Made by a program: the position numbers and the translations under genes | The notes under the pieces: model-generated | Seen by the model: only the letters and a program-made list of their open reading frames with translations | Databases searched by the model: none | Told to the model about the DNA's origin: nothing | In this document: positions 11,345 to 32,351 of the stretch, piece after piece | How positions within the stretch are numbered: position 1 is the stretch's first letter | Layout: each line of letters opens with the position of its first letter | NCBI RefSeq assembly: GCF_030012175.1 | Contig: NZ_JASCXW010000005.1 | Location: 1 to 64,000, forward strand | Direction: 5' to 3' | Length of the DNA: 64,000 nucleotides | Source: Peloplasma aerotolerans | Lineage (GTDB): Bacteria > Bacillota_I > Bacilli_A > Acholeplasmatales > Acholeplasmataceae

Positions 11345-12047
11345 ATTTTTACTAGATGCATATGAAATTGCTAGATACATTAAAGAAGCTACTAAAAAAA
11401 CACCAATTAAACTACATTTAAAAGGTGATATGAATCAAATTGACTTTAGCCAAGTCAAAGCTTTTGGTGATCAAAATCATCAAACAGTTTTTGGTGAAAT
11501 CAAAGATATTGAGCTTATATTAGAAAACTATAAAAATTATATAACTGATTACGTTATAGAATACGATCGAAGAAATTCTGCAATTCCATTACTAGATATT
11601 ACGAAAATACCAGCACGTATTGAACCAGGATCATTCATTAGAGAGCATGCTGTCATCAATCAAGATGCAGTTATCATGATGGGTGCAGTCATTAATATTG
11701 GTGCGGTTATCGGTGAAAAAACAATGATTGATATGAATTGCGTTATCGGTGCACGGGCTATTATTGGACAACGGTGTCATATTGGTGCTGGTGCAGTCGT
11801 TGCTGGTGTTTTAGAACCGCCATCAAAAGATCCAGTCGTCATAGAAGATGACGTCTTAGTTGGAGCTAATGCTGTTATTTTAGAAGGTGTAAGAATCGGT
11901 AAAGGAGCAGTAGTTGCTGCTGGAGCGATTGTTACACAAGACGTCCCTGAATTATCGGTTGTAGCAGGATCACCTGCTCGTGTGATTAAAATGAAAGATG
12001 AAAAAACGAGTGACAAAACAAAAATACTTGATGATTTAAGAAAGTGA
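11337..12047 (+). CDS. dapH: Tetrahydrodipicolinate N-acetyltransferase
   Basis: Acetylates tetrahydrodipicolinate with acetyl-CoA, the step that commits the pathway to the N-acetyl branch. The N-terminal ~85 residues are the DapH-type alpha/beta cap. From [16 protein letters not shown] onward there are hexapeptide repeats (for example [16 protein letters not shown] and [16 protein letters not shown]) forming a left-handed beta-helix, ending in [10 protein letters not shown]. 236 residues, like Bacillus DapH, and distinct from the succinyl-type DapD. It starts within the last bases of dapB and is followed after four bases by the aminotransferase. Confidence 0.94.
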
Positions 12048-12051
12048 ACTT

Positions 12052-13230
12052 ATGAATGATTTTAATTTAGACCAAAAATATATATTAAATACCTATAAAA
12101 GACTACCTATCGAAATCAAAAAAGGTCGAGGGTCTTATTTATATGACATCAACAATAAGAAATATTTAGATATGTTCGCTGGTATTGCTGTATCAAGTTT
12201 AGGACATCATCATCCGAAAATTATAAAAGCAATTAAAAAGCAGTCAAAGAATTACTTACATTTATCGAATTATTATACATCAAAAACATCCGTTGCACTT
12301 GCGAAAAAACTTGTTGAACATAGTTTCGCATCAAAAGTTTTTTTCACAAATTCTGGAACAGAAGCAAACGAAGCTGCACTTAAACTTGTTAGAAAATATG
12401 GCAAAACAATTGATTCTAAAAAAACAAAGATTATTGCCCTTCATGAAGCGTTTCATGGCAGAACATATGGTGGACTATCCTTAACAGGACAACCTCATTA
12501 TCAAGAAGCATTTAAGCCTTTAATTCCAGATATTATTCATATCCAAAGAAATGATGTTAAAGCATTAGAAACTGTAGTTTCAGATGATGTATGTGCGATT
12601 TTTATTGAAATGATTCAAGGTGAAAGTGGTGTTCAACCCTTGGATTCAGATTTTATTAACGCGATTAATATATATGCAAAAAAACATCAATTTTTAATTG
12701 TTGCTGATGAAGTTCAGACTGGCTTACTTAGAACAGGAAAACTATTTGCATATGAACATACGAATTTAGTCCCAGATATTTTAACATTAGCGAAATCCTT
12801 AGGTGGAGGTCTTCCATTAGGTGCCATGCTTGTTAGTAGACTCTATGAAGATATTTTAAAACCAGGAGATCATGGAACCACATTTGGGGGAAACCCATTA
12901 TCATGTGCAACTGGCCTTGTCGTCATGCAGGAACTATCAAATTCAAAAATGATTTTAGCAGTACAAGATAAATCAGAGTACTTGTTTCAACAACTAGAAA
13001 ACTTGAAAAGCAAATATCCGGTCATCACAGAGATTCGTGGAAAAGGATTAATGATAGGGGTTGAGGTTGGACAAAAGGCATTAGATATACAGGTTAAGGC
13101 ATATGAGTTAGGTGTTTTACTAAATGTAACTCATCAAACGGTAATTCGGTTACTACCGCCATTAAACATTCATAAAAAAGAACTTGATCAGTTCATCAAT
13201 ATATTTGAAAGTATACTAAAAACCGTATAA
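12052..13230 (+). CDS. Class-III aminotransferase, probable N-acetyl-LL-diaminopimelate aminotransferase
   Basis: PLP enzyme of the ArgD/acetylornithine aminotransferase family, 392 residues. Visible motifs are NSGTEANEAALKL (phosphate-binding), EAFHGRTYGGLS, the cofactor aspartate in VADEVQTGLLRTG, and the PLP lysine in LAKSLGGGLPLGAM. Its position at the end of the lysine operon, right after dapH, says it most likely transaminates N-acetyl-L-2-amino-6-oxopimelate. In Bacillus subtilis this step is done by PatA, a class-I enzyme, so the recruitment of an ArgD-type protein is a real difference; ArgD-type enzymes are known to act on the succinylated analogue in Escherichia coli. No arginine genes are nearby. 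Start ATG follows a few bases after dapH. Confidence 0.82.
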   Translation: MNDFNLDQKYILNTYKRLPIEIKKGRGSYLYDINNKKYLDMFAGIAVSSLGHHHPKIIKAIKKQSKNYLHLSNYYTSKTSVALAKKLVEHSFASKVFFTNSGTEANEAALKLVRKYGKTIDSKKTKIIALHEAFHGRTYGGLSLTGQPHYQEAFKPLIPDIIHIQRNDVKALETVVSDDVCAIFIEMIQGESGVQPLDSDFINAINIYAKKHQFLIVADEVQTGLLRTGKLFAYEHTNLVPDILTLAKSLGGGLPLGAMLVSRLYEDILKPGDHGTTFGGNPLSCATGLVVMQELSNSKMILAVQDKSEYLFQQLENLKSKYPVITEIRGKGLMIGVEVGQKALDIQVKAYELGVLLNVTHQTVIRLLPPLNIHKKELDQFINIFESILKTV

Positions 13231-13248
13231 AATATACGAATATTAATA

Positions 13249-13279
13249 AAAATGGGGACGAGATGCTACCCATTTTTTC
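13249..13279 (+). terminator. Terminator of the lysine operon
   Basis: Stem AAATGGG / CCCATTT around a 12-base loop, followed by a T run, 18 bases after the aminotransferase stop. The rest of the gap up to 13446 holds a candidate promoter and nothing else recognisable. Confidence 0.78.
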
Positions 13280-13388
13280 TTTATAAGGTATAATGTTTTC
13301 AAAGCACAATAGTTTATAATCATTTTTAATAAAATGAGATTAGACGATTATTATAACCTCTTTAATTTAACTGTTCACTTGTGAAAGG

Positions 13389-13417
13389 TTGAATTTATAT
13401 TCGATATACACTAAAAT
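13389..13417 (+). promoter_or_regulatory. Candidate promoter for the EAL gene pair
   Basis: TTGAAT and TAAAAT separated by 17 bases, about 30 bases before the start codon of the first GGDEF/EAL gene. Both hexamers deviate from consensus, so this is a moderate call. Confidence 0.5.
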
Positions 13418-13446
13418 AATATTATACAAAAGAAAGAAGGACATGA

Positions 13447-16032
13447 ATGAAACGCTACACGTGGAAACTTGCAATTGCTTTTATCTTATCCTACGTACTG
13501 CTTATGGTAGTTGTTGTTTTTTCGTATACCCGAATTTCTGAAAACTTTATTTTAAATCAAGCAAAACAAAACTTGATTGATCAAAATCAAATTATAACAA
13601 ATAGAATCAACGCTCAATTTGATTTCGACTATCAACAGTTTAATGAGTTAATTTTATATTATGAAAACTTATCATTAAATCCGATTGATGAGTTAAATGC
13701 AAATATCGAAATGATTTCAGTTAATGGCCAAAACTTTGAAGGATTTGGAACCCTTGATCAAAGAACTTTAAGTTTATTAGAAGAAACTTTTACTTATCTA
13801 TCTGCTTTTGATAATGAAGACTTTGAGCAAAACATTGCAATCTATTCGTTTGCTGAAGCTTTTGGCGATGCTAATCAAACCGTCTACATATTTTTTATGG
13901 TTGATGAATATGTTGCATATTTTGATGCGCAAATATACCTTGACTCTATTCTAGATTTATCAGATATGCATGATCATTACTTGATTGTTAGTGCTGATAA
14001 TGTAGTTGCATACCGTAGTTTTTTAAACGGATCATTTAATTATTTCTATGACTACTTAAGAGCTGAAGGTGTTAGTGAAAGCTCAATTGATGTTATAAAG
14101 AGTAAACTGATGAGTGGCACTAGTGGTGCGAGCCAACATAAATTTTTAGGTGTTAACTCTTTTATTGTTTATAGTCCATTAAATACAGAGCTATCAACAA
14201 AGAACTATTACCTAATTCAAACATTTAATGAGAATGTTGTGATTACATCATTGGGATATTTAACAAACATTTTATGGGCATTATTCTTTGTTATATTTAT
14301 TTTGTTTGCAGGGGCACTTGTTTTGCTCTTTAAAATCCTTGAACAAAAAGTTAATGATATTGAAAATGCAAGGTTAGCACATTATTATGCGAAACCATAT
14401 ATCGTTAGAGTCTCTCATAAAGGCAAGATTAAGTCATACAATCATAGTTTTAAAAAACTACTTGGAGATTATGATATCTATGATTATGTAACTGATTTTG
14501 ATACAAGACAAGATTCAGACCTTGATTTAATTGAGGACGTATTAAAAAGACAACGTGCCTTTACTGCAATATTTGAACTTGGATTTCACAAACTGGTCTA
14601 TGTGCGTTTTATTCCACTGAAGACGACAGGTGGATATATTTTAATTGGTGATGATATTACATCTATTGAAGGTAAATTTGATGAATACCGTCATATGGCA
14701 TTGTTTAACAAAGTAACTCATTTACCGAACTATAATAGTTTAAAACAAGATTTGCAATCATTTTTTGATAATGTAGAACTCCTTGAAAAGAAAAATTCAT
14801 TGTTAGCTTTAGATATTGTCTCTTTTTCTAAGATTAATTTACTTCTAGGAGAAAAAAGTGGGGATCGCTTCTTAGTCATTGTTTCAGAATTAATAGATGA
14901 ATCACTAGAAGGATACCCCGCAACCCTTTACAATATCGTCGCTGATAGTTTTGTCGTATTCTTTAAAGATATTGAAAACTATAATTGGGTAACAAGGTGG
15001 GCACAAAAATTGATTACCACTTTTGAAAAACCGATAACCATTGACAAGAACTTTATTAACATCGATGTTAAAATGGGTATTTTCAATATTGAAGTAGCAA
15101 AATATGAAATCATGAATAGTGAAATTGTTTATGAGAATATGCAGTTAGCACTAAACCATGCAAAAGAGTCTACACAACAAAAATACTTTATCTATGACGT
15201 TAGTTTAAGTATGGTAGCATCAAGAGAGCAGCGCATGGAACAAGACTTGGCATATGCAATTAAAAATAATGAGTTTTATATGGCACTTCAACCTCAATAT
15301 GATAATCAAAAGGAAAAGATTACAGGTTTTGAAGCTTTAATTAGATGGAACAATCCTAAATATGCATCTGAATCACCACTTAAGTTTATTGAAATGGCTG
15401 AAAGAAACAATATGATTATTGACATTGGTCGTATTGCACTTCATGAAACATTTTTAATTGCTAAAGAATTAGAAAGATACGATATTCATATTTCTATGAA
15501 CATCTCACCTGTTCAGTTGTTACAAGCAGGGTTTGTTAATGAAGTATGTACCATTTATGAACAATACGATTTAAAAAAAGGTGCTGTAAGCTTAGAGATT
15601 ACCGAAACATTTTTAATTGGTTCATTTGAATTGATTATTAATAAATTGAAGCTATTAAAAAAATATGGATTTAATATTCATCTTGATGACTTTGGTACTG
15701 GCTATTCATCACTTCAATACCTAAAAGATTTACCAATTAATACTTTAAAAATTGATAGAGCGTTTATTATTAATCTTGAATCAGATGCCTATTCAAGAGC
15801 AATTGTTCAAATGATTTCATCTTTAGCGAAAAACGTTGGACTTGAAGTTATTGCTGAAGGTATCGAAAACGATCGTCAAAATCAATTGGTGTACAAGAGT
15901 GGATGTAACATTATTCAAGGTTACTTAATTTCACCAGCTGTTGTCAAATCAGAAGCAATTAAGTTAATTGAGGATTATAATATAAATAAGACTAAAAAAG
16001 TAGAAGTGCAAAAAAAGGAGATTAAGCGATGA
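13447..16032 (+). CDS. Membrane sensor GGDEF-EAL protein, probable c-di-GMP phosphodiesterase
   Basis: 861 residues. A first membrane helix (residues ~7-29) and a second (~274-297) bracket an extracytoplasmic sensor domain of about 240 residues, dCache-like by layout. A PAS-like stretch (~310-410) precedes a GGDEF domain whose motif has become VADSF with the metal motif LDIVSFSKIN, so cyclase activity is unlikely. The C-terminal EAL domain looks complete: GFEALIRW (~residue 627), NISPVQL, EITETF, LDDFGTGYSSLQYL (~748), IDRAFI, AEGIE and QGYLIS. It should therefore hydrolyse c-di-GMP to pGpG, with the degenerate GGDEF perhaps binding GTP. Its stop overlaps the next EAL gene (ATGA), so both are made together. 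It lies directly upstream of the duplicated surface locus. Confidence 0.9.
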   Translation: MKRYTWKLAIAFILSYVLLMVVVVFSYTRISENFILNQAKQNLIDQNQIITNRINAQFDFDYQQFNELILYYENLSLNPIDELNANIEMISVNGQNFEGFGTLDQRTLSLLEETFTYLSAFDNEDFEQNIAIYSFAEAFGDANQTVYIFFMVDEYVAYFDAQIYLDSILDLSDMHDHYLIVSADNVVAYRSFLNGSFNYFYDYLRAEGVSESSIDVIKSKLMSGTSGASQHKFLGVNSFIVYSPLNTELSTKNYYLIQTFNENVVITSLGYLTNILWALFFVIFILFAGALVLLFKILEQKVNDIENARLAHYYAKPYIVRVSHKGKIKSYNHSFKKLLGDYDIYDYVTDFDTRQDSDLDLIEDVLKRQRAFTAIFELGFHKLVYVRFIPLKTTGGYILIGDDITSIEGKFDEYRHMALFNKVTHLPNYNSLKQDLQSFFDNVELLEKKNSLLALDIVSFSKINLLLGEKSGDRFLVIVSELIDESLEGYPATLYNIVADSFVVFFKDIENYNWVTRWAQKLITTFEKPITIDKNFINIDVKMGIFNIEVAKYEIMNSEIVYENMQLALNHAKESTQQKYFIYDVSLSMVASREQRMEQDLAYAIKNNEFYMALQPQYDNQKEKITGFEALIRWNNPKYASESPLKFIEMAERNNMIIDIGRIALHETFLIAKELERYDIHISMNISPVQLLQAGFVNEVCTIYEQYDLKKGAVSLEITETFLIGSFELIINKLKLLKKYGFNIHLDDFGTGYSSLQYLKDLPINTLKIDRAFIINLESDAYSRAIVQMISSLAKNVGLEVIAEGIENDRQNQLVYKSGCNIIQGYLISPAVVKSEAIKLIEDYNINKTKKVEVQKKEIKR

Positions 16033-17507
16033 CATGGTTCACAATTTATCAAATCACTGATCAAGCAACTATCATATTATCCATCTTATCTATGCTCATC
16101 ATGCTAGGTGGCATTTATTGGCTTGCACGTTCTTATTTTAAAGAAAGACAACGAATTATTGAAGAAAAAGCTATGACAATTGAAGGTGTTTTGACAAAAG
16201 CAGAAATTTCTTCAATTATTACAACTCATATTGCTAGATCTGGAAAAGATGGTCAATTTAGTTTGGTTTATTTGGATTTAGATAAGTTTTCTGATTTCAT
16301 TAATGCATTTGGTCAAAATGAAAGTGAAAAGATATTAGAAAAGATTGTTAAGAATATGGAGTATGCAATACCAAAAGGTGTAAAAATTGCAAGACTTCAA
16401 AATGATGAGTTTCTGATTTTCTTATCGATGGATTATGACCGTACTGAAGCTGTTGATATCGCTAACAAGCTTAAAGCAGCAATTGCAAGACCAATTAAAC
16501 TCTTTGGTGATACAGCAATCAATGCGACAGCATCGATAGCGATTGCCTTTTATCCAATTCATGGTGGAACGTTAAAAGACTTAATAACTTCATTGAAACT
16601 AGCAACCTATATTATTAAAAAAAATGGTGGTAACAATATTAGAGTCTATTCTGATGAAATGGATAATGAAGGTGGAGAACATGTTGAGTATTACTATCAA
16701 ATTAAACATGCGATCCAGCACAAAGAATTCCAACTGTATTATCATCCAATGATTGATTTGAAAAATAACGATATTTACGGTGTTGAAGCACTTATTCGTT
16801 GGAATCACCCTGAACACGGTTTATTATCACCTTTTAAGTTTTTAGGGATTATGGAACAATCAGGTGATATTAACTGGATTGGTCTATGGGGATTAGAAAC
16901 TTGCATTAAGACATATCAAGAGTTGAAACAAGAGTTTCCTAAAAAAGATATCAAGTTCAGTATTAACTTGAGTCCTAAGCAATTAATGAATGAGACATTG
17001 CCAAATGAATTTCAAAAAGTATTGAAAAAGTATAGAATGAACGCTGAACATATTATATTAGAAATCATTGAGTTTGCAGTGTTCGATCGCCCACTACAAA
17101 TCCATAAAAACATTGAGACATTAAAGAAAATGGGATTTAAGATTGCAATCGATGGTTTTGGACTAGACTATGCAACACTTTCAAAAGTTAAAGTATTAGA
17201 TATTGATATCTTAAAACTTGATAATGAGTTTTTAAAAGAAGAAGAATCTTATATGAAAGCTAAGTTTGCATCATTACTAGTAGAGTTTGCTAAGAAGAAT
17301 AACTACGAAGTTATATGTGAAGCGATAGAATCTTTAGAAATGCTAGAAGAAGCTAAGACATATGACATTAATATTATGCAAGGCTTTTATTACACGAAAC
17401 CATTATCAGCAGAAGCACTAAGGGGATATATCGGAACAGAGAGTTGGAAAGATGTCAGTAGACATGGCGTAGACTCACCTGATCAAAGGAATGAACTTCT
17501 AAAATAA
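16029..17507 (+). CDS. Degenerate GGDEF-EAL membrane protein, possible c-di-GMP receptor
   Basis: 492 residues: one N-terminal membrane helix (~15-37), a GGDEF domain with the signature replaced by RLQNDEF (~residue 122), and an EAL domain in which only part of the catalytic set is kept. VEALIRW and QGFYYTKP are present, but the glutamate motif reads LEIIEF instead of E-T-E, the metal-binding DDFGTGYSS has become IDGFGLDYATL, and EGIE is EAIE. Loss of the second aspartate of the DD motif normally abolishes phosphodiesterase activity. A role as c-di-GMP binding effector or as regulatory partner of the preceding enzyme is more likely (inference). The four-base overlap with the preceding gene implies fixed stoichiometry. 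Confidence 0.85.
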   Translation: MTWFTIYQITDQATIILSILSMLIMLGGIYWLARSYFKERQRIIEEKAMTIEGVLTKAEISSIITTHIARSGKDGQFSLVYLDLDKFSDFINAFGQNESEKILEKIVKNMEYAIPKGVKIARLQNDEFLIFLSMDYDRTEAVDIANKLKAAIARPIKLFGDTAINATASIAIAFYPIHGGTLKDLITSLKLATYIIKKNGGNNIRVYSDEMDNEGGEHVEYYYQIKHAIQHKEFQLYYHPMIDLKNNDIYGVEALIRWNHPEHGLLSPFKFLGIMEQSGDINWIGLWGLETCIKTYQELKQEFPKKDIKFSINLSPKQLMNETLPNEFQKVLKKYRMNAEHIILEIIEFAVFDRPLQIHKNIETLKKMGFKIAIDGFGLDYATLSKVKVLDIDILKLDNEFLKEEESYMKAKFASLLVEFAKKNNYEVICEAIESLEMLEEAKTYDINIMQGFYYTKPLSAEALRGYIGTESWKDVSRHGVDSPDQRNELLK

Positions 17508-17827: not shown

Positions 17828-18535
17828 ATGAAGCTGTCCAGAGTGCTACAAGTTAAGAAATCGATGCAGCGTAAGAGGATTCACACACTGATGTTTATTA
17901 GTAGTGGAATCTTGTCTATCATCTTTGTTTTAATTACCTTTTATGGAACACAAGCTGGAAATTTCATCATGACAGTTGACTATGATGCATATAAGCGAGG
18001 GATTGTCTTATCACAAAATGATGACTTCGATGATCCACAAGCTAGATTGATGACAAGACCTGTCACAGAAGCAAGAGACATGACATACTCCTGGTTAAAG
18101 ATTGAAGAAGTATTATCAACAACCGGAAACTATACAGACCCAGATTATGATTATGTCGCGTACACATTCTATTTACAAAACAATGGATTAGAGACAGTCA
18201 ACGTCATCTATCACATCCGTATTACAGAAGTTTATAAAAATATGGATGAAGCAATTCGAGTTCTTGTTATTGAAGAAGGTGAAGAAACAATTTATCAAAA
18301 GCCTGATAAGAAAGTTGGTGGTGTATTGATCAGTTACCCACTCGAACTACAAGAAACAAAACACTTTCTATCAGACACAATTGTTACTAGAAAGAAAATT
18401 GAGAATTTCAGACCAGGCCAATTAAGAAAATACAGTGTGCTGATGTGGATTGAGGGAACAGACCCTGATACGACAGATGACATTTTAGGTGGTATGGTCA
18501 AGTTACAAATGAACTTCTCAATTGAGAATCCATAA
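17828..18535 (+). CDS. TasA/camelysin-like secreted or membrane-tethered protein A1
   Basis: 235 residues with a basic N-terminus, one hydrophobic helix (residues ~21-42) and the junction TFYGTQAGNFIMTVD, which resembles the start of mature SipW-dependent proteins. The rest is predicted beta-rich, with a tract in the middle (VAYTFYLQNNGLETVNVIYHI) of the kind seen in TasA-type jelly-roll domains. It ends with the signature MWIEGTDPDTTDDILGG (~205-220), a version of the W-[IL]-E-G-x-D motif shared with A2, A3 and their copy-B partners. I infer a subunit or anchor of an extracellular fibre. The counterpart in copy B starts at 32646. First gene of the block; A2 begins three bases after its stop. 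Exact function unknown. Confidence 0.72.
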   Translation: MKLSRVLQVKKSMQRKRIHTLMFISSGILSIIFVLITFYGTQAGNFIMTVDYDAYKRGIVLSQNDDFDDPQARLMTRPVTEARDMTYSWLKIEEVLSTTGNYTDPDYDYVAYTFYLQNNGLETVNVIYHIRITEVYKNMDEAIRVLVIEEGEETIYQKPDKKVGGVLISYPLELQETKHFLSDTIVTRKKIENFRPGQLRKYSVLMWIEGTDPDTTDDILGGMVKLQMNFSIENP

Positions 18536-18538
18536 AAT

Positions 18539-19516
18539 GTGAAGATAGCTCATTTTAGAAAAATCAATTTATCAATCTTATCACTGATCTTCATCTTATT
18601 AATCTTTGGAACTGTAACATATGCTTGGATATCCATGTCAACCATTAACAACATTGAAGGTATGTCGATTACAGCTACAGCAGGAAATGAACTTGAAATA
18701 TCACTCGATGGTGAAAACTTCGCAAACAACTTAACCATTCAAGAACTCAATGATCTCTTTGAAAACATTGTTCTAAGAGATGTTACAACAACAGATGGTA
18801 TAGATTTCACGCGAGGTGGACTAACACTCGGTGGACGAGCAACTCCAAATCAACATTATTTATCATTTGAGTTGTGGTTTAGAACAACAAGAACTGAACT
18901 TAACGTTTATCTCATCAACAATGTCAGTCATGAAATGGAATATGACTCAATAAAAGACGGTACTTATGTAGTATCAAGAGGCATAACTTGGATGAGTAGT
19001 CATGATTTCCAATATGGTCCTGAAATAACAGATATGATCTTTAGAGGAGAAACAAGACAATATTTTGCAAGTGAAGCAATCAGAATCGGTTCAGTTGAAC
19101 TACATGATGAATCCAATGAACTTGACAATAGAACCGATGAGCAACTCAAAAGATTTATATTTGATCCTTCAGAAAATGAAGGCAGAGGATATGGAAAACC
19201 CTACGGAGCTTATAGCTTCTTCAAAGAAAGAACAAGGGTTACTCTGGAATTACCCGAAACCCTACCTAATACATCATATCGATTATCAACACTTGATCCA
19301 ATCAATCCGTATCAAGCACTAGATAATGAGAGTTTGATTGCTACCTTGCAGGAAACCAATCAAGTCGATGCACAAGGTAGAACAATTTATCAAGGCAAAA
19401 TCAGAATTAATGTATGGATTGAAGGATGGGACGCAGACGCATTCGATGCAATTATCAATGACCGCATCAAAATACAACTGCAATTTAAGATAGCTAGAAG
19501 AGCTATAAATGAATAG
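18539..19516 (+). CDS. SipW/TasA-type fibre protein A2
   Basis: 325 residues. N-terminal hydrophobic segment followed by TVTYAWISMSTINNIEG, a typical SipW-dependent signal with likely processing near the AW. The C-terminus carries INVWIEGWDADAFDAI (~291-305), nearly the same signature as in A3. The middle holds FDPSENEGRGYGKPYGAYSFF and SYRLSTLDPINPYQALDNES, both closely conserved in the copy-B partner. Start is a GTG three bases after the A1 stop; an ATG two bases before it is out of frame and blocked at once, so translation is probably coupled to A1. No strong ribosome site is seen. Predicted secreted minor fibre subunit (inference). Confidence 0.72.
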   Translation: MKIAHFRKINLSILSLIFILLIFGTVTYAWISMSTINNIEGMSITATAGNELEISLDGENFANNLTIQELNDLFENIVLRDVTTTDGIDFTRGGLTLGGRATPNQHYLSFELWFRTTRTELNVYLINNVSHEMEYDSIKDGTYVVSRGITWMSSHDFQYGPEITDMIFRGETRQYFASEAIRIGSVELHDESNELDNRTDEQLKRFIFDPSENEGRGYGKPYGAYSFFKERTRVTLELPETLPNTSYRLSTLDPINPYQALDNESLIATLQETNQVDAQGRTIYQGKIRINVWIEGWDADAFDAIINDRIKIQLQFKIARRAINE

Positions 19517-19520
19517 GTTT

Positions 19521-19541
19521 CAATTTAACAATCGTTAATTG
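19521..19541 (+). other. mRNA stem-loop upstream of A3
   Basis: CAATTTAAC-AATC-GTTAATTG can pair with one bulge. It is not followed by T residues but by an A-rich, unstructured leader with a strong ribosome site. The equivalent spot in copy B (34328-34348) also has a stem-loop of different sequence. Confidence 0.5.
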
Positions 19542-19578
19542 ATAAAAAAAATAAAAAGAAAAAATAAGGAGAAAGAAA

Positions 19579-20523
19579 ATGAGTAAAGTTACTAGAAAAT
19601 TATTATTATCAGTATTATCAGTCGTTTTAACAGTCGTAGCACTTGGAACAACGACATTTGCGTGGTTTACAATAACCAATATTGCATCAGTTCAACCGTT
19701 TGAGGCACAAGTACTAGCAGATGCCGGTATTGAAATTGCATTAGGTGATCTCGGTGATGGTGTAAACCCATCGACGTTAAACTGGGTGACTACTTTAACA
19801 ACAGAAGATATTATGGCATATATAGGAGAATTAGGTACATTTAGATTTGATCATGTTACTACTTCAGATGGAATAGAGTTCTGGACTTTAGGTAGTGGAT
19901 CATTATCACGTGTTTATAGTGGATTTTTAGAAATCCCATTGCATTTTAGATCTAATAATGCAACTGGTATTAATTGGACAAGTGTTTCTTTAACGTCTGG
20001 TTTAACACCGTGGATTGCAGATGTTGCGTTTACTTCAGCACAAGGTGATGCTGTTCAATCAGGACAATCTATTTCAGTCGATGCAGCAAGTGCAATGAGA
20101 ATAGCTATTCAAGGTACAGTTAATGAAGATCCAAATCACGTTGTTGGTTATGAAAAAGCTGGAAGCACAACAAATGTTTATTTAGGCACTGGTGGAGACT
20201 TACGCGGTGATGAAATTGGTGAGCCTGAATCAGGTATATATTATGGTGCTAATGGTGCGATGAACTATTTCTATAGAAAAAATAATGAACTTCCTGCTGG
20301 AATTGATGCAGTAGCAACTTTAGCTACATTAACAGAAATTGGAGCAGAAAAAGTTCTAGATATGGAAAGTGGTCAAGCATTAACAGCTGGAAATGAGTAT
20401 TATGGAAAAGTTACATTACGTATTTGGCTAGAAGGTTGGGATGCAGATGCATACAACGCAATTTTAAACCGAGTAGTTACAGTTGCTTTAAGTTTCCAAG
20501 GCGACGTTGAGGACCAAGAATAA
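19579..20523 (+). CDS. SipW/TasA-type fibre protein A3, candidate major subunit
   Basis: 314 residues. The leader (MSKVTRKLLLSVLSVVLTVV...) followed by GTTTFAWFTITN is a textbook SipW-dependent signal and is almost identical to that of the copy-B partner. The mature part is acidic, glycine/threonine-rich and predicted all-beta, and ends with LRIWLEGWDADAYNAIL (~281-296). An A-rich leader with AATAAGGAGAAAG gives very good translation. The gene is bracketed by a stem-loop on each side, which would favour a stable processed message. These signals suggest it is the abundant subunit of the structure (inference). It is followed by the signal peptidase gene, as tasA-like genes sit beside sipW in Bacillus. 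Confidence 0.75.
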   Translation: MSKVTRKLLLSVLSVVLTVVALGTTTFAWFTITNIASVQPFEAQVLADAGIEIALGDLGDGVNPSTLNWVTTLTTEDIMAYIGELGTFRFDHVTTSDGIEFWTLGSGSLSRVYSGFLEIPLHFRSNNATGINWTSVSLTSGLTPWIADVAFTSAQGDAVQSGQSISVDAASAMRIAIQGTVNEDPNHVVGYEKAGSTTNVYLGTGGDLRGDEIGEPESGIYYGANGAMNYFYRKNNELPAGIDAVATLATLTEIGAEKVLDMESGQALTAGNEYYGKVTLRIWLEGWDADAYNAILNRVVTVALSFQGDVEDQE

Positions 20524-20633: not shown

Positions 20634-21335
20634 ATGGAAAAGAAAAAACCAGCAGGCATCAAAGTCCTGAGAGTATCCATGAATGTATTATTTTACACGT
20701 TAATCCTATTTTTAATGGTCTTTTCAATTGCAAACATTAAAATCAAAACAGAAAATGATATTGCTAATGTCTTTGGCATGGGCTTCTTATCTGTACAATC
20801 TGATTCGATGGCTGGCAATGAAAAAGATTCATTTAGCCAAGGTGATATGGTATTCGTTAAGCTGTTAAATGATAGTCATCGTCAAAACCTTCAAGTCGGC
20901 GATGTTATTACTTATTATGATATATCTATTAAAGCTTTTAACACGCATAGAATTGTTGAAGTTTTAGAACTTGATGGAGAAAAGTTTTTATACACTAAAG
21001 GTGATAATACATCAGGTATAGATAAGCCCATTCATATATCAGAAGCTATAGCGGTTCACCAATCATCAGTAAGTTCATTAGGAACTACATTAGATTATTT
21101 ACAATCACCTGGAGGATTCGCATTATTTGTGATCTTACCAGTCGCAGTATTGTTAATTGTCGAAGGTATATTCTTAGCAAGAAATTTATTGAATATGAAT
21201 AGAGTTAAGCTTGAAGAGAAATTTAAAAAAGAAGTTAAACAAACTCAAGAGAGCTTAGAAACAGAGTACGAGAAAATCCGTAAGCAAGTCTTAGCAGAGA
21301 TAGAAATGAACAAGAACTTAAAAACAAGTAGATAG
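20634..21335 (+). CDS. SipW-like type I signal peptidase, copy A
   Basis: 233 residues. N-terminal membrane helix (~17-35), then the catalytic box VQSDSM with serine ~58. A histidine at ~105 in FNTHRIVEV takes the place of the lysine of usual bacterial enzymes, which marks the archaeal/ER-type SipW group, and an aspartate lies in TKGDNTSGID. A second membrane helix (~163-183) is followed by a charged coiled-coil tail of ~45 residues. It should remove the AWFT-type signals of the neighbouring secreted proteins on the outer side of the membrane. The ATG follows AAGGAGTATTAT. Strong resemblance to the copy-B partner at 35481. Confidence 0.92.
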   Translation: MEKKKPAGIKVLRVSMNVLFYTLILFLMVFSIANIKIKTENDIANVFGMGFLSVQSDSMAGNEKDSFSQGDMVFVKLLNDSHRQNLQVGDVITYYDISIKAFNTHRIVEVLELDGEKFLYTKGDNTSGIDKPIHISEAIAVHQSSVSSLGTTLDYLQSPGGFALFVILPVAVLLIVEGIFLARNLLNMNRVKLEEKFKKEVKQTQESLETEYEKIRKQVLAEIEMNKNLKTSR

Positions 21336-21359: not shown

Positions 21360-22886
21360 ATGGTCGAATTTGGACGTTATTATATCAACTTCATTAGAGA
21401 ATTTTTTGAGAATGTTGGTGCATTTTTTAGAGGTTTATTCGAAGTCTTCGTAGGATTCTTCGTTAATGATATTGGTCAAATGTTTAGCAACTTCATCATA
21501 TCAAGTATCCACTTTACATTACTCGATTGGGTAATGACTTTAATCGTGTTTGCAATTAACATTGTCTTTATTGTCTTTTTGACAATGAAAGTTGCACAAG
21601 CACTTAAGAAATATATTAAGTTTAGAAAAGAAGAAATAGAAAAAGATGAATTGGTAGCTGAAATAGCTTTCTTGAATCAAAAAACGATGGAACTCATCGA
21701 TGAGAAAAACAAGATATTAGCTTTAAAGGTATCTAATTTAGGCATTAATCCAAATGGTGATGATGAAGATATTGAGTTAACAGAAGAGGAAATAGCAACT
21801 TCAAGATTTGTGAAATTACTTCAAGTCGATAAAAAATATGAAGATACAATTACACAAATTCATATGAATGAAAATGATATGATTACACTGAATGAACTCG
21901 TTGTTAGATTTATAAACTTTTCTGCAAACAAACTTGGTCTTTATTATGATCGAAAGATCATTTCAGCATTCTTTTCTGGTATGGCAGCATCTAAAACAAT
22001 GATTTTAGAAGGTATTTCTGGTACAGGTAAAACATCATTACCTTACGCAATGGGAAAATTCTTCCAACATGATGCAAGTATTATTGCTGTTCAGCCTTCG
22101 TGGAGAGATCGTGCAGAAATGATTGGTTATTTAAATGAGTTTACCAAAAAATTTAACGAAACAGATTTTTTAAAGGCAATTTATGAGACAACATATCGTG
22201 ATGATATCAATATCATCGTCTTAGATGAAATGAACTTAGCACGTGTAGAATATTACTTTGCTGAGCTACTGTCATTACTAGAAATGCCAGATCATGATGC
22301 TTGGTTAGTAGATGTTGTACCTGATACACAACCTGGTGACCCTAAAAATCTAATCAACGGTAAATTATTGTTACCGCAAAACGTATGGTTTATTGGTACA
22401 GCAAATAAAGATGATTCAACATTTATTATTACTGATAAAGTTTATGACCGCGCTACACCGATTGAAATTAACACGAAGAGTCAATATATTGATGCACCAA
22501 AAACTGAGGGAGTAACATTTAGTTATGATTATCTTCAAGAGTTGTTTGGACAAGCATATAAAGATCATCCAATGAGTTTACCAGCAATTGAAAATCTTGA
22601 AAAATTAGATAACTTTATCACTAAAAACTTTAAAGTTACTTTTGGTAACCGTATTATGAAGCAAATTAGAGCATTTGTTCCAGTCTATGTTGCTTGTGGT
22701 GGTTCAGAATATGAAGCACTTGATTATATGGTTGCACGTAAGATCTTTAGAAAATTTGAAGGATTGAACTTGCCATTTTTACAAACTGAAATTAATGACT
22801 TGTCAAAACTTCTAGATAAACTATTTGGTAAAAATAATTTTGAAGAGTGTCAAGCATTTCTAAACAATATTAAAAAGCAGTTTTAA
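21360..22886 (+). CDS. Membrane-anchored McrB/MoxR-like AAA+ ATPase, copy A
   Basis: 508 residues. Amphipathic N-terminus rich in Phe, a membrane helix at ~57-79, a coiled-coil linker (~85-125), then an AAA+ module: Walker A GISGTGKTS (~218-226), the McrB-type stretch VQPSWRDRAEMIGYL, Walker B IIVLDEMNLARVEYYF (~284-299), and the sensor region WFIGTANKDDS (~342). This is the McrB/AAA_5 family, normally GTP- or ATP-driven motors. Here it is tied to the membrane, with no nuclease next to it, inside an operon of secreted beta proteins, so a role in assembly, secretion or quality control of the fibre is more likely than restriction (inference). Very highly conserved with the copy-B partner. Confidence 0.85.
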   Translation: MVEFGRYYINFIREFFENVGAFFRGLFEVFVGFFVNDIGQMFSNFIISSIHFTLLDWVMTLIVFAINIVFIVFLTMKVAQALKKYIKFRKEEIEKDELVAEIAFLNQKTMELIDEKNKILALKVSNLGINPNGDDEDIELTEEEIATSRFVKLLQVDKKYEDTITQIHMNENDMITLNELVVRFINFSANKLGLYYDRKIISAFFSGMAASKTMILEGISGTGKTSLPYAMGKFFQHDASIIAVQPSWRDRAEMIGYLNEFTKKFNETDFLKAIYETTYRDDINIIVLDEMNLARVEYYFAELLSLLEMPDHDAWLVDVVPDTQPGDPKNLINGKLLLPQNVWFIGTANKDDSTFIITDKVYDRATPIEINTKSQYIDAPKTEGVTFSYDYLQELFGQAYKDHPMSLPAIENLEKLDNFITKNFKVTFGNRIMKQIRAFVPVYVACGGSEYEALDYMVARKIFRKFEGLNLPFLQTEINDLSKLLDKLFGKNNFEECQAFLNNIKKQF

Positions 22887-22898
22887 GGTGGTGAAATG

Positions 22899-23663
22899 AT
22901 GACAAATAATAATACAAACACATTACGCCGTTTAATGCTTGTCTCTGTTGTATATTTCCTTTTAGCATTAAGTGTTTTTACAGTCGTTGTTTATGCATGG
23001 TTTACATTAACCAATACGAATCTCACAGCTTTAGTATCTAAAGTATCTGAAGTTGAAGCAGAATATGAATTTTATGTGTATAAAGATCAATTGCATAATG
23101 GAAGTACAAATTTAACATTAATTGATAATGTATGTCTAACAGAAACTGATGATTTATGTTATCGATATATTCCGAATCCAACAACAGCACATTTAATTGA
23201 TGGTAGTGTTGCACCTGGAGAGCGCTTTTCATTTGCAATAAAAATTTTAAACATCGGATCATCACAGGCTTATTTGAAACTTGATTTTGGTGGTGTAGAG
23301 TCTAGTGGTTACGATTTAGCAGTTAATAAGATACAAACAGCATTTTTATATGAAGTCACCCAGATATCATACATCATTGATGGGGTTGAATCAGAAGATA
23401 TGAAAGAAAATGCTCCTAGTATTTATCATTCAAGTTATTTTTCATCTAACAGTGAGATGATATATCCACTGGTAAAAAACATACCTATGACTGTAGGTGG
23501 AGCTAATAACTCCATGGTCGTTATTTATTTTGATTTATATTTTGATCCAACTATATATGGTGAGGATGAGTTTGGTGTTCCTTATACAAATAGTAATATA
23601 TTTAAAAAACAGTCTTTTATCGTAGAGCATGTCTATATGATTATTACTGCAAATACGGACTAA
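22899..23663 (+). CDS. TasA-like secreted protein A6 with cysteine pair
   Basis: 254 residues. Hydrophobic leader (~13-32) ending in VYAWFTLTN. The region SVAPGERFSFAIKILNIGSSQAY follows the pattern of TasA/camelysin proteins (Pro-Gly, then a strand, then N-x-G-S), making this the most TasA-like member of the set. Two cysteines eight apart in NVCLTETDDLCYRY (~79-87) are kept in the copy-B partner and could form an extracellular disulfide. The first ATG (22896) is directly followed by a second; I choose the second, which has better spacing from AAGGTGGTGA and aligns with the copy-B start. Directly behind the ATPase gene. Confidence 0.75.
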   Translation: MTNNNTNTLRRLMLVSVVYFLLALSVFTVVVYAWFTLTNTNLTALVSKVSEVEAEYEFYVYKDQLHNGSTNLTLIDNVCLTETDDLCYRYIPNPTTAHLIDGSVAPGERFSFAIKILNIGSSQAYLKLDFGGVESSGYDLAVNKIQTAFLYEVTQISYIIDGVESEDMKENAPSIYHSSYFSSNSEMIYPLVKNIPMTVGGANNSMVVIYFDLYFDPTIYGEDEFGVPYTNSNIFKKQSFIVEHVYMIITANTD

Positions 23664-23695
23664 ACCAAAGGCTTTAAGTTAGAAAGGAGATCCTG

Positions 23696-24352
23696 ATGAA
23701 AAAACATTTAATCATTGCACTTTCTATCTTTTTAATCATTGTCTCTATCACTGGAGTAACGTATACTTGGTTTACTTATGTGCATAGGAAGTCTTTAGCA
23801 CAGTTTGTTTCTAACGAGATTGAAGTTATCGCGGAAATCAATCAAACGATTGTTATCGACGAAATTCTTATGGATAATTTATCATTTATCGATTATGAAA
23901 ATGATTTAATTCAAGATCAGACCGGTATGTTAAGTTATATGTCATCAACAATTGAAATTGTCGTTAGAATTCCTAATGGATCTCCATTATCAAAACACAA
24001 AATTCAATTTGAGAATTTATCTAATGATGATAGTCTTATTTATTTAATTGTCTATGATGGCATGAATTTAGAAGAACCCTATACATTTACAAAAAACTAT
24101 CATGAACGCATTGGAATTATTATTGATGGATTAACGACTAAAGCAGATCGGTTGAATGCGATTAGTAGTTATAATCAACAAGTACTAGATGACTTATATC
24201 AAGTAATAACCAAATCAGATGATGTCCTATTTTTGCAAATTGCAATCTGGGGAGACTATGATGCAGTGGTTGATCAAACCAATTATCTCAATCAAGTCTA
24301 TGCATTTCGTTTCGTTATTGATACTGTAAGCTCAAAAGGTGAGGTGAGTTAG
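23696..24352 (+). CDS. SipW/TasA-type secreted protein A7
   Basis: 218 residues. Leader of ~20 hydrophobic residues ending in VTYTWFTYVHRKSLAQF, a SipW-type signal, then a predicted beta-rich mature part with few recognisable motifs. It ends with FRFVIDTVSSKGEVS, which is also conserved in the partner at 41251. Very strong ribosome site (AGAAAGGAGATCCTG). The next gene starts two bases after its stop. In copy B the equivalent gene is the first one behind the internal riboswitch. Function unknown; probably a minor fibre or accessory component. Confidence 0.68.
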   Translation: MKKHLIIALSIFLIIVSITGVTYTWFTYVHRKSLAQFVSNEIEVIAEINQTIVIDEILMDNLSFIDYENDLIQDQTGMLSYMSSTIEIVVRIPNGSPLSKHKIQFENLSNDDSLIYLIVYDGMNLEEPYTFTKNYHERIGIIIDGLTTKADRLNAISSYNQQVLDDLYQVITKSDDVLFLQIAIWGDYDAVVDQTNYLNQVYAFRFVIDTVSSKGEVS

Positions 24353-24354
24353 AT

Positions 24355-25038
24355 ATGAGAAAATTAAATAATAAATGGGTAATCATAACCATACTATATT
24401 TGATATTATTGATATCATCTTTTGCGATTACCTATGCTTATTATGTCTCACAAAAAGCGTATGGCATAACTTTACAAACAGGAGAGTTTGAAGTAGAAAT
24501 CTTTATCTCTTTTGATAACAATGCCATTTTAATTGATAGTCCTTATTATGATCAAGAAAAAAATGTTGTCCTGGTTAATAGTTATGATCCAAATAGCGAA
24601 AACTATATCGGGAAACTTAAAATATCAGTTTTAATTACACCAGCAGTTGCTGCTCGTGTCCGTTTTAAAATTATGGATGAATGGGAACTTACAAGAACTT
24701 ACTTAGATCAAAACCCTGAATATCCAGTTGATCCCGTTGTTGAATCAATTTATCATACTGCTAAAGATGAGACATACTATCCGTTTTCATTGTTAAAAGT
24801 TGATCCAACATTTGATGTTAAATTTGATTTAGATAGCTATGCCTATTTTAATGATGTTCTTCAACATGGTAAGCCAAGAATGATTCATTTGATTGACGGT
24901 GGAGACAGGTTTTTAGTACGTTCGAATAATATTTTCGAAGAAACAGTTTATATTAAACTTGGTTTTCTAATTGAAGTTGTTCAAGCAAATCGTATCGTAG
25001 AATTATGGGGGATCGATCAAACATTTTATACAGAATAA
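24355..25038 (+). CDS. SipW/TasA-type secreted protein A8
   Basis: 227 residues. Leader followed by AITYAYYVSQKAYGITLQ, close to the TasA/camelysin type of processing site. The mature part has two very conserved stretches shared with the copy-B partner: YDPNSENYIGKLKISVLITP and DEWELTRTYLDQNPEYP. It is coupled to A7 (start two bases after its stop, ribosome site GAGGTG inside A7) and followed after 11 bases by the giant protein gene. The tight linkage A7-A8-giant is kept in copy B, so these three probably act together (inference). Confidence 0.7.
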   Translation: MRKLNNKWVIITILYLILLISSFAITYAYYVSQKAYGITLQTGEFEVEIFISFDNNAILIDSPYYDQEKNVVLVNSYDPNSENYIGKLKISVLITPAVAARVRFKIMDEWELTRTYLDQNPEYPVDPVVESIYHTAKDETYYPFSLLKVDPTFDVKFDLDSYAYFNDVLQHGKPRMIHLIDGGDRFLVRSNNIFEETVYIKLGFLIEVVQANRIVELWGIDQTFYTE

Positions 25039-25049
25039 GAGGTGAAAAT

Positions 25050-28000
25050 ATGACAAAAACAATTGTAAAAAAAATCGTCTTACTTGTTTTTGTCGTGGTT
25101 TCACTTTTTTTGTTTATAAACTCTGTGGGACTTTCAAAAATAGGTGCATATGACGTTCAAATGTTTAGTCCTTGGAAAGGAAACGATTTAGATTTTAGTC
25201 ATCTAGAAGATATCCCTTTTGAAAGTTCATATCAACCATTTAAGACCATCATAGAATCAACACAAGAAGTTAATATGAATCATTATTATGTTATCGAAGA
25301 CGCCTATGACTTATATAAACTGTCAGAACTTAGTTTGGGTGAAGATAAGATTACTTATTTGAGTTTAAATTATGTATTAGGTAATAATATTGACTACTAT
25401 GATACTGTATTAGAAAATATTAACCATAGATTCCATCCAATAGGCTTTATAGAGCCTTTTGTTGGAACATTTGATGGACAGGGTTTTGAAATATCAAACT
25501 TGTATTTTCAAACGATATTAGATGAAGAAACTTATAACAATCAATATTCAGGATTGCGTTTTTTCTCAATGTTTTCTAAAGTTGGGATTCAAGGAACAAT
25601 TAAAAATTTAGGATTGATTAATCCGATTATTATTCAACCAATTGAATGGGGAATCATGGATCATGCTTCAGCTTTAGTTGGTGAAAATTATGGACACATC
25701 GAAAATGTTTACCTAATTGATACAAGAATGGAAACTGCTGGTTTCCATGTTGAAGGTGCATTTCATGTATCTGGTATGATTTCTATTAATCAAGGAACTG
25801 TTAGCAATGCATTTATAGCAACTCCTTATGTTAAATCAAATGCTGTCGTTAATCTTCAATCGATTAATGTCTTTATGCATCAAAATTATGGAATTGTTAC
25901 ACAATCATATTATGATCAAAGTATTTATGGAGATATCAATGGATTAACCAATCATGTTGTTGGTTTGAGTACAGAAGATTTTCAAGATGATGCATATTTT
26001 TCTAATGCTTGGTACTTTAACGATCATTATTTAGGATTAACTTTGCAAGTCTATGAAGAATCACAAGCATCCTTAAACCATACATATCCAATTTTACAAG
26101 GTTTATCATATGATCAAGGTGTTTTGCAAATAAGTAACGCTATTGAGTTTAATTATATGAATAAGCTTTTGGTTCTATCAGGATTTTTTAGATCTAGACA
26201 TTATCAAGTTGTAAAAGATATTGATATGAATCAAATTGCACGAGGTGCATATCGAGGTGCAAGTGTTGGATTTAATGGTGAATTTTCAAGTGCACTTCGC
26301 ACACCACAAAGTTCACTTTATGAAAGAAGTATTGATCAAGGTGGAGATCTTAATTATCACACAGTGATAGGATTAAAAATATGTCATGCCTCAGAAGTAG
26401 GTAATTTTTCTAGTTATGCGATGTTTGCTTCATTGTTTGGAATTGTTAGAAATGTCAATTTTGTTCGTTTTGAAATTACAACAAACGACTTGCAAACTCA
26501 TACGAATAAAACAAAAATTTTAATCGGTACAATTGCTGGACAAATGAACAATGGCAGAATAGAAAATGTTCATATTCTAGGTGATATTGATATAATATCT
26601 ATTCAAACCTCTACAACTAGAATATACGCTGGAGGCGTTATTGGTGAAGGTTCAGGTACAATAAAAAATGTCTCTACTAAAGGAACAATAACACATGGAG
26701 TACAAATCTATGCATCTAAGAACAATGAAAGTTCTACTGCAGGTATCATCGCTAAATCGAATGGTATAACCATAGAAAATCTCATTAATAGCTTTGATGT
26801 AATGGGTATGAGTTATTCAAATCATGTATCATCAAAACATTATGTATCTGGAGTGATTGGATACGGAAAAGTAAATAGTTTAACTAAAGTAGTTAACTTA
26901 GGACATATTAAGTCTCACGATGTTTTAGGCTATATGGATACACTGTATATCAGTGGTATTATCGGACTACAAATGAGTCAAAATAATGAAATAGAAAAAG
27001 TATACAATCAAGGTTCTATAACCACTTATATGACAAATCCAATGACGCTAAGTCTATCTGGATTTGGTTCAGTTGATGGTAGTTTGGATGCTAGTGAATC
27101 AACATATCTCTACCGAAGCTTAACGAATAATGGCATCATTTCATTAAACCATCCAAACGGCAATCAATTTACGGAATTAGAGTTAAGTGAAATGGATATA
27201 AAAATATCAAGCTTAATTATTGCTGATGCAGTTGATGCATCCTTTTATGGCTTGTTTAATGAAAGAAGTATATCTCTGGATTTAAGTTTAATTGACGCAT
27301 ATAGTTCAAATCTAATTATTTCTAACTCTAATAAATCATCAATTACTCAATCTTATAACACTGGAAATATTACATTGACATCAGAAAATACTATAGTTAA
27401 AGAAAATATTAGAGTGTCTGGGAATATATTGGGGTCTAATATTTCAATGACGCATTTGAGAAATGAAGGAAACATTAATGTTTCGTTTAACAATGCATCA
27501 CTGAATAACAATGGTCAATTATATGTATTTGGTTTGTTTGAAGATGTTAGTCAAGATATGACTGCAAACGATGGTTTCAATGGAGGAGACATCACGATAT
27601 CAAAAGCACCATCAGTTGATGTTTATCATGATATATGGGTATCAGGTATTGGTTACAAACATTCAAATACAAATTATATGGATGAACACCATATCGATCC
27701 AACATCGATTCAAATTACTGATATTACAGGATCAATGAATCATTTTATTAATGATGGTGATTTATCGATTGTAGGAGATTATCATAGCTCTACAAGAGCA
27801 TCAGGTATTCTGCTTCATAATTATGGATTGCTTACTAAAGCAATCAATCTAGGTTCAATTCAAAATAAAAATAATCTTCAGGTCTTAAATCACGAAGTTG
27901 AGTCATCAGGTATTGTTTATATGATGATTGGTGCATATGCTCAAGTTAAAGACTCAGCAAATTATGGTGATATTGTTTCAGTTTCGACAACAGATCAGGG

Positions 28001-31000
28001 TTATACATCAGCATCAGGTATCGTTGGAAGAAATGATCGTTTAGAAAATTTAAGTTATACAACTCAAGGTACAAATCATAAGTATGCTAAAATATTGTTT
28101 AGTATTAACTATGGAGATGTTTATGCATATAGTGGTGTTGATGAATCAACATATACCATAACAAATGAGACGAGATCTAAAGCATCTGGTATTTTTGGTC
28201 AAGGTTTATTAAGTATCGTGAATGTGATTAATTATGGAGATACTTTCTCAAAATATTTAGCAGCTGGTATTTTTGGGTTTGTTGACTTCCCTAAGTTTGG
28301 TGAAATCGCTAAAACTCAAGTTTACTTAGCAAACGCAATCAATTATGGAAAAGTAAGAGCAATCACAAGTTATGATGGAACATTTAATATAGATATGACT
28401 TCATATCCTATGAGAACAAGCTATAATGCCTTTAGTTCATTTATCGGTAAATATCATACAGGAACATCATCATGGGAATTCTTATCTGTATCCTCTAGTG
28501 CATTATATCCTATTGACAATATAAACTTTGGGTACATCGTTAACTTTGATGATTTAGGCAATATGTTAGGCAATGCACCACAATTTACACTAGCCGATAA
28601 TTTAGCCGATAACGGTATAGGAAACTCAGATTTATTAGCTATTATCAATAAATTTTCAACTACAAATGATACAGACAGCTCAAAAGAACCATTTAAATTA
28701 TTTTATGTAGGTACACATCCAAAAGGTTCTAATTATGGTAAGGCTATTCATAGTTACTTATTAGATGAAACTAGTTTTGGAATTTTCAACACAAATTTTA
28801 TCCTAAAAACACCACCTGTATCATTTACTGGAACTGATCAGTATTTGAGAAACTATATATCATATGTACCGATTGATAAAGCAAATAGTGTTTTAATTGA
28901 TCAACTTGAATCGAATACAACACAGGAATACATGGGGCTTTATGTTTTAACCAGTAGTCGTGGAGTTGCAAATGGTATTTATATGCCTGACCATATGGAT
29001 CTAGAAGCTCTACATCCATATTATGGTGAAATCGAAGATACGACATGGTTAGGTGATACTAGTGATACAAACAGTGTTATCTATAAGTTGACGCACGGTA
29101 TGCGTCAAATTCAAGTGTCTTATGCAACAACGATTTATGATTTAGAAATCATGCAAGTTGATGAAAGTGGAAATCCAATTCAAAATGGGTTATCACTGCA
29201 AAAACCAATTATTGATGAACAAAGAGGTTTAATTACTTATTATTTACCTAGTAATGCACAAATATTAAACCATTTAACATCACAAACCAAATCGACCTAT
29301 AGTTTCGTTGAAGCATCTCAAGGTATGGAAGGTGTTAGAAAAGTACCTTATGTTTATGATGAAGCTTCGCAAACATGGAGTTATAAGTATGTTGGTGATT
29401 ATCAAAAAGTTGGATATTATTATGAAGAAATAGGTCCCTATCATTCAACTGGGACAGTCAATTTAACATTTTCTGTTGATCCTATATTGATTGAAAGTAA
29501 GAATTCAGAAAACTATGTGACAAACGCTACTTACACATATCAAACACAAGAAGCAGAATCTATATTGAATCAAGTCTTTAAACATTTACCACATTACCAA
29601 CGTTACGTTTCACATAACTTTTGGTGGACACAAACCGGACATACTGTCACTGGTATTTCAACAGTTCTTGGTAGCTATGGTGCATATAAAAGAGTTGTTG
29701 AACCTTATCCAGCATCAATTTATGGTGATGGAGTTTATGAGTATGTTGGACCCCATGAAGCCATCGTCACCTATATGCGTTCAGAATCAGAGACGATGAC
29801 AATTTTTGAAGATGCAGGTGTTTACTTTAAAGCAAGTACAGCAACAGGAAGTTACGTGATTGCTGATGGTGCATCACTTTTGAATAATGGAATGCCACAA
29901 TTAGAACTGATTACAATCCCTAAATCATTTGGTGCTTATGATGTGATTCATGATAGTACAAATGATGATTTAATTGATAGTTTAGAAAGTCATTATGGCA
30001 AAGTTAGAATTTATTCATCAAACTATGAATCAGCAGATCCACAAACATATCGCGATTATGACATTAGAATCATTCGTACAGCTGATCAAAGTTTAATAGA
30101 TATTGAGTCTTTACATGTTAATGGAATTGACGCAATACCGACAGTTACAGACTTTAGAGATATAACATCGACTGTTGATATCAATTTTATTTCTGATGGC
30201 TCAAATGGTGTTTTAAGTGTGCGCTATCAAACGATGAATATGGCTACGGGATATAATATTTTATCTTTGGTGTCGTTGTATGATGAAATCACATCAAATA
30301 TGATAGAATCAGATTTATATTTGCTTCATAAAGGTGTTGTAGAAAACACGAATGTCTTTAATAATTTGACAGGTGTATGGGGAAATGGTTATGTGACCTA
30401 TGATTTTGAAGTAACAGATTTACTTCCAAGTGGGTCTTATCGTTTAGAACTAGAGCTTGTTACTGGAGAAGTCGCAACCATATTTTTTGAAAAAATAGAG
30501 AGTTCTAACGGATTTATTGTTGAATTTAATTATCAAAATGAAGTGATTCATCCAGATGGTTTAATAGAAATTTCAATGATTCCTTATGGTATCTTTTATG
30601 ATGTATCTGATGCTAGAACTGAAATTGTCAATTTTTCTAACTTATCAAGTTTATCGAATATTGATTACTTAGACATAGAAAACAATATCCCTAGTTATTT
30701 AAATCATTTAGTAATTTCACCGTTTTCTACGCTTATTAGTATTGATTTATCGATTGCTCAAATTGGAGGATATAAATATCAATACGATATCCTATACACT
30801 ATTGAAGCAGAAGATGGTACTTTAAGTGGTTTCACACATCGTTTGTTAGAATATGATATCAATCCAAACCCGATTTATATTTATAATAATGGTGGGGAAG
30901 TTGATTTACCATTTGATGAACTCGTTATCGGATATATGGATGCTCCAACAGTACGTGTTGAATTTAATTTAACCAATGTTTATTTACCAGATACACAAAC

Positions 31001-32322: not shown

Positions 32323-32351
32323 TTGACAGCGTTTGCAAAATGAAATATAAT
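32323..32351 (+). promoter_or_regulatory. Consensus sigma-A promoter of copy B with overlapping cre-like box
   Basis: TTGACA and TATAAT are both perfect and 17 bases apart, just ahead of the tandem riboswitches. The stretch TGACAGCGTTTGCA (32324-32337), which includes the -35, fits the catabolite-response (cre) pattern TGWAANCGNTNNCA with one mismatch. Binding of CcpA or another LacI-family repressor there would block transcription; this second point is inference. Confidence 0.85.

Follow-up and report, generated by a model that had tools for sequence, protein, structure and literature searches.

The gene at positions 21360-22886 of the window, a stretch of 64,000 nucleotides of Peloplasma aerotolerans DNA, encodes a membrane-anchored McrB-like AAA+ protein (copy A) and lies in the first of two related surface operons, A and B. 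The reading we favor, with a probability of about 60%, is that the two operons specify a c-di-GMP-commanded, membrane-anchored and nuclease-free McrBC-derived machine of the CoCoPALM type, working together with SEC11/SipW-type signal peptidases in processing or assembling exported, SipW-dependent surface proteins. New here is the observation that c-di-GMP-I riboswitches are present in the leaders of operons that carry an McrC homologue, and that none occur in copy-A operons.

All features described here are on the forward (+) strand. Upstream of operon A are two membrane proteins with EAL and GGDEF domains, CDG1 (13447-16032; Pfam EAL E 4.5e-62, GGDEF E 2.5e-15) and CDG2 (16029-17507; Pfam EAL E 4e-58). 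Most of the order's complete fibre-type loci have CDG1 at the same upstream place, and often two EAL/GGDEF proteins precede such loci. Operon A begins with three exported surface proteins, F1-F3 (17828-20523, with reading frames called at 17828-18535, 18539-19516 and 19579-20523). No family in Pfam or NCBIfam matched these proteins, of which F3 has a FAWF cleavage-type motif. They are followed by a SEC11/SipW-type signal peptidase with a cytosolic helical tail past its last membrane helix (20634-21335; TIGR02228, E 5.4e-18, above cut-off), by copy A, by the exported surface proteins F4-F6 (22896-25038), the order of which is conserved in relatives, and by a giant surface protein of 2362 amino acids that has no Pfam family (25005-32093).

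Operon B contains F1-F3 (32646-35339, 47-55% identical to copy A), a SEC11/SipW-type signal peptidase, SIP (35481-36146; TIGR02228, E 1.7e-19), the membrane-anchored McrB-like AAA+ protein of copy B, also with an NKDD motif (36178-37713), an McrC homologue (37717-39597), and F4 with a YAWF motif (39619-40371). A second signal peptidase, SIP2, is absent from operon A (40383-41048; TIGR02228, E 4.5e-15). It is followed by F5-F6 (41215-42590), of which F5 is weakly camelysin-like (Peptidase_M73), and by a giant surface protein of 2357 amino acids, 52% identical to that of copy A (42620-49693). The order in fibre-type loci is F1-F2-F3-SIP-AAA-McrC-F4-SIP2-F5-F6-giant protein. It varies outside the closest genera, and the part F1-F3-SIP-AAA-McrC is conserved in dozens of loci across many families.

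The assignment of copy A draws on its reading frame, motifs, profile, structural model and hydropathy. The reading frame is intact, with exact bounds at 21360 and 22886, and encodes 508 amino acids; the genome (2.04 Mb in 88 contigs) has just two such ATPase genes, at 21360 and 36178. The McrB-type Walker B and sensor motifs reported in an earlier note on this DNA were found again: Walker A is GISGTGKT, Walker B is IIVLDEMN, and the sensor-1/GTPase motif is NKDD, which is of the shortened NxD type. In this signature, usually followed by D or E, the N and D are invariant across the ATPase family. The best solved structure for a profile of 34 relatives was E. coli McrB (6hz4/6ut6, E 7e-4). With hhalign the family matched E. 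coli McrB at E 1.6e-7 and 93.9% probability, whereas against RavA no AAA match was obtained, so that on the proposed comparison of McrB and RavA both profile and hhalign favor McrB. Foldseek was non-discriminating: the AAA+ model matched dynein, MCM, Lon and MoxR-type proteins, McrB was not singled out, and NorQ, CbbQ and RavA were among the top matches. A phmmer search of the PDB with copy A as a single sequence gave chance matches only.

The N-terminal membrane helix claimed for copy A was borne out as well. Hydropathy (Kyte-Doolittle, 19-residue window) peaks at 2.71 at residue 58, a value reached by 1 of 1000 shuffled sequences, and a hydrophobic N-terminal segment is present in all 85 scored relatives with a recognizable Walker A. 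The peak for E. coli McrB is 0.94, without such a segment. In the copy A model, helices 2-49, 54-90 and 95-125 precede the core. The coiled coil noted along with the membrane helix is likely, but because helix 95-125 was modeled with low confidence it is not proven. A comparison of the N-terminal segment with one FtsB, that of E. coli, gave no hhalign match.

The statement that the ATPase has no nuclease neighbor was correct, but the McrC homologue directly after the copy B ATPase had been missed. This protein of 626 amino acids starts 3 bases after copy B and is absent from operon A; it combines a DUF2357 domain (PF09823, E 5.5e-11, 42.6 bits, cut-off 23.3) with a helical tail of about 200 residues and has no nuclease. 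Among 32 McrC homologues, 22 match DUF2357 and nothing else, and none matches a nuclease family. In the model, an N-terminal domain is followed by a single continuous helix (422-625) at the position where a nuclease would be expected. A placement of close relatives mainly beside McrC nucleases, which by the earlier note would have spoken against its proposal, was thus not found. The kinship of the partner with McrC is based on the Pfam DUF2357 assignment. In hhalign the family did not match E. coli McrC directly. Foldseek with the model found neither McrC nor any other plausible match, the probable reason being dominance of the long helix. In one locus (L004 10540-12294, MAG M17C-02), the helical tail of the McrC homologue looks frame-shifted and the whole-genome match has several stops, possibly from an assembly error.

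Distribution was examined in a sample of 150 genomes of the order, many of them incomplete, with mechanically called reading frames. They contain 97 near-full-length matches to the ATPase, 81 of which have an McrC homologue directly downstream. Copy-A orthologues account for 15 of the 16 exceptions, and in the remaining one (G070) an McrC homologue lies on another contig. The AAA-McrC pair is present in other families of the class too. Since the ATPase relatives normally adjoin an McrC homologue, it is the whole McrB-McrC pair that was adapted, with loss of the nuclease, and copy A is the derived exception. The suggestion of a restriction-type motor adapted to envelope work therefore survives as to an McrB-like, membrane-anchored, nuclease-free protein in a conserved surface operon, for which the gene context points to envelope work, and fails as to a lone motor.

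The order also contains related genes in other settings. In eight loci (L041, L044, L046, L048, L051, L068, L070 and L111), an AAA-McrC pair follows a protein of about 430 amino acids and a giant protein of about 2500 amino acids, without signal peptidase or riboswitch. The smaller protein has degenerate GGDEF/EAL domains in L044 and L048, and the giant protein of L041 has 14 cadherin-like domains. AAA-McrC-AAA tandems, in which a single McrC homologue lies between two similar membrane AAA+ genes and no riboswitch is present, were found in L049 (7832-12426, adjoining a transglutaminase-domain protein at 12452-14989), L053 (7499-12159) and L055 (7290-12217). Two further loci (L037 6319-10579 and L059 6699-10960) encode a CoCoNuT-like AAA+ protein of 900 amino acids with a zinc-ribbon McrC homologue, apart from the surface operon. 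Because some AAA-McrC relatives are without signal peptidases and riboswitches, coupling to a peptidase cannot be the sole role of the family.

Nine gene pairs are shared by operons A and B. As had been noticed before, the ATPase is the best conserved of these, with 78% identity against 43-55% for the other pairs. The McrC homologue is missing from all 15 copy-A loci, and the second signal peptidase is missing from copy-A operons too. In the tree, the copy-A proteins form one clade (support 95/95; 90/64 in a wider tree). Since this clade is nested within the McrC-bearing clade, one tandem duplication followed by loss would be the simplest history. Compared to its nearest orthologue, copy A has a dN of 0.041 and a dS of 0.73 (dN/dS about 0.06). 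Out of 90 columns that are invariant in 50 McrC-bearing relatives, 87 are kept in all 15 copy-A proteins, NKDD included; the same test on two control clades with McrC gave 87/98 and 87/93. Mean identity among the copy-A proteins is 71% versus 75%, i.e., they are slightly more divergent. According to Niu et al. (2020), as cited in Bell et al. (PMC11090510), the NxD aspartate of McrB contacts McrC. This aspartate is retained in copy A. From its retention and that of the invariant columns we infer that copy A still interacts with an McrC, presumably the one of operon B.

Operon B is preceded by a consensus sigma-70 promoter, TTGACA-17-TATAAT (32323-32351, 12/12 match). Its leader contains two c-di-GMP-I riboswitches, at 32377-32450 (RF01051, 60.5 bits) and 32512-32585 (62.3 bits), and a third lies within the operon before F5 (41116-41190, 63.3 bits); the gathering cut-off of the Rfam covariance model is 35 bits. 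Operon B thus holds three of the five c-di-GMP-I riboswitches in the genome, and their positions in the leader and before F5 are kept in relatives. Loci were surveyed with a model built from 18 examples (74 loci) and with Rfam (21 loci). A leader riboswitch before F1 was found in 31 of 34 McrC-bearing operons versus none of 13 copy-A operons, and the three McrC-bearing operons without one belong to two more distant families. None was found in the 74-locus survey at the AAA-McrC loci with cadherin-like giants, the AAA-McrC-AAA tandems or the genes for 900-residue CoCoNuT-like proteins. Downstream of riboswitch 2 is a terminator-like stem built with the 3' strand of the aptamer, and riboswitch 3 has a terminator-like fold with a z score of -3.8. 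Pairing of the aptamer 3' strand with a downstream strand before a T run occurs at 52 of 68 sites, compared with 55 of 340 (16%) when the downstream sequence is shuffled. This sharing of a strand between aptamer and terminator stem suggests that bound c-di-GMP would prevent termination, i.e., an ON switch is predicted.

The SIP family profile matches SEC11A (E 4e-11), which places it with the SEC11/archaeal/SipW type, and the residues Ser58, His105 and Asp124 are invariant. A conserved charged helical tail extends beyond the last membrane helix. The topology would make it cytosolic and put it on the same side of the membrane as the AAA+ domains. The tail is a candidate partner of the motor, or it may serve something else. 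SIP proteins of four loci (L052, L057, L061 and L063) from one family of the order are much longer, up to 494 amino acids, with low-complexity tails or N-terminal extensions. The F3 and F4 families share an invariant Ala-Trp past the signal segment, which is the type of site handled by SipW. Their profiles matched no TasA structure and no other known fibre fold or family. Only F5 of copy B reached Peptidase_M73, at E 0.0048 and below the cut-off. Because the F subunits match no fold or family, their fibre nature is a presumption. A weak NCBIfam match to 'bindosome BasB' was rejected as a chance match to a membrane helix. A search for PBP transpeptidase, positive in 10 of 14 control genomes, found none in this genome, consistent with a wall-less mollicute. 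In this genome without PBP transpeptidase, region 5401-13230 of the window carries genes that we take to resemble those of lysine/diaminopimelate synthesis.

In the mechanism that we propose, the AAA+ domains would form a ring that the N-terminal helices anchor to the inner face of the membrane. The DUF2357 domain of the McrC homologue would insert into the ring and stimulate hydrolysis via the NxD motif, and its long helical tail, having replaced the nuclease, may pass force or position to partners. Through the cytosolic tails of the peptidases, maturation or release of surface subunits could be coupled to the motor. High c-di-GMP would allow read-through of the leader riboswitches and thereby turn on operon B. 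Following the single tandem duplication, copy A would have lost riboswitches, McrC and the second peptidase, and it probably borrows the McrC of operon B or enters mixed rings with copy B. With such a dependence, activity of copy A would follow c-di-GMP indirectly. Of these elements, the family, the membrane helix, the order of the genes, the pattern of losses and the riboswitches can be read from the sequences, and we infer the ring, activation by McrC, coupling via helices, action in trans, the direction of the switch and the substrates. A more far-reaching version, which we consider tentative and rather doubtful, is that a restriction motor pair has become the power unit of c-di-GMP-switched surface assembly in wall-less bacteria, and that the riboswitch-free copy A is active only if the McrC-like activator of operon B is supplied through c-di-GMP.

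Other functions can be considered for such a protein. It could belong to a membrane-based system against phages, as has been proposed for related McrBC/CoCoNuT groups, in which the ring senses invasion and acts via the membrane or a surface structure. The only strong match in PADLOC was indeed to a defence candidate, PDC-M26A (E 6e-39), which also fits the 900-residue CoCoNuT-like proteins of the order, and the paper of Bell et al. (2024, PMC11090510) treats CoCoPALMs alongside restriction systems. However, neither the 32 McrC homologues nor the model has a nuclease, the arrangement with genes for secretion and surface proteins is conserved across families, c-di-GMP riboswitches control the operon, and separate CoCoNuT-like proteins occur in the same genomes (L037). 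This makes a defence role unlikely. We rate as equally improbable a MoxR-kind chaperone or disassembly factor that remodels a membrane complex independently of the signal peptidase. Such a role would agree with the presence of NorQ, CbbQ and RavA among the best Foldseek matches and with relatives beside cadherin-like giants without peptidase, but the sequence profile favors McrB over RavA and the partner is a DUF2357 protein, not a VWA protein.

The explanation that copy A is a decaying duplicate with no function of its own has the lowest probability. It would account for the missing McrC, SIP2 and riboswitches and for the slightly higher divergence of the copy-A proteins; against it, copy A is kept in 15 genomes at the low dN/dS given above, with 87 of the 90 invariant columns retained and all motifs intact. 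We retain the c-di-GMP-commanded machine acting with the peptidases, and it seems that machinery of defence has been put to new use in building the cell surface. If this is true, envelope biogenesis has taken over a defence-type GTPase pair, and bacteria that lack PBP-type wall synthesis may use a second messenger to control their surface.

Compared with known systems, E. coli McrBC, a Type IV restriction system, shares with the proteins described here an AAA+ core and a DUF2357-type partner. Here, the N-terminal methylcytosine-binding domain and the PD-(D/E)xK nuclease are lacking, NxD replaces NxxD, and a membrane helix is present. CoCoNuTs resemble them in belonging to the NxD branch, in their long coiled coils and in McrC homologues without active nuclease. 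They differ in that here there is no tandem nuclease gene and no Pfam-recognized RNA-binding domain, and in that the context is a surface operon and not defence. The SipW-TasA-TapA biofilm matrix operon of Bacillus also combines a SEC11/SipW-type peptidase with exported proteins in which aromatic residues (AWF) follow the end of the signal peptide, but the present subunits score below the TasA/camelysin cut-off, an ATPase and an McrC homologue are added, and control is by a c-di-GMP riboswitch.

The closest description is that of CoCoPALM, a large clade of NxD McrB GTPases with an FtsB-like membrane and coiled-coil segment (Bell et al., 2024, eLife, PMC11090510). Signal peptidases are associated with it and coiled coils occur on both subunits; details were deferred and no mechanism was given. 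The text of that paper does not mention c-di-GMP, riboswitches, SipW or TasA, and we found no later CoCoPALM papers in the open-access literature, to which the search was confined. A group named in 2024 without a proposed function is now tied to c-di-GMP riboswitches, tailed SEC11/SipW-type peptidases and an McrC-less duplicate, which provide testable handles. Like CoCoPALM, copy A belongs to the NxD McrB GTPases and has an N-terminal membrane segment, a likely coiled coil and an adjacent SEC11/SipW-type peptidase. The DUF2357 McrC homologue with a coiled coil is absent for copy A and present for copy B. Since, apart from similarity to FtsB, for which the one sequence compared gave no match, the operons have the CoCoPALM features except for McrC in copy A, we assign copy B to CoCoPALM and regard copy A as a derived variant that has no McrC.
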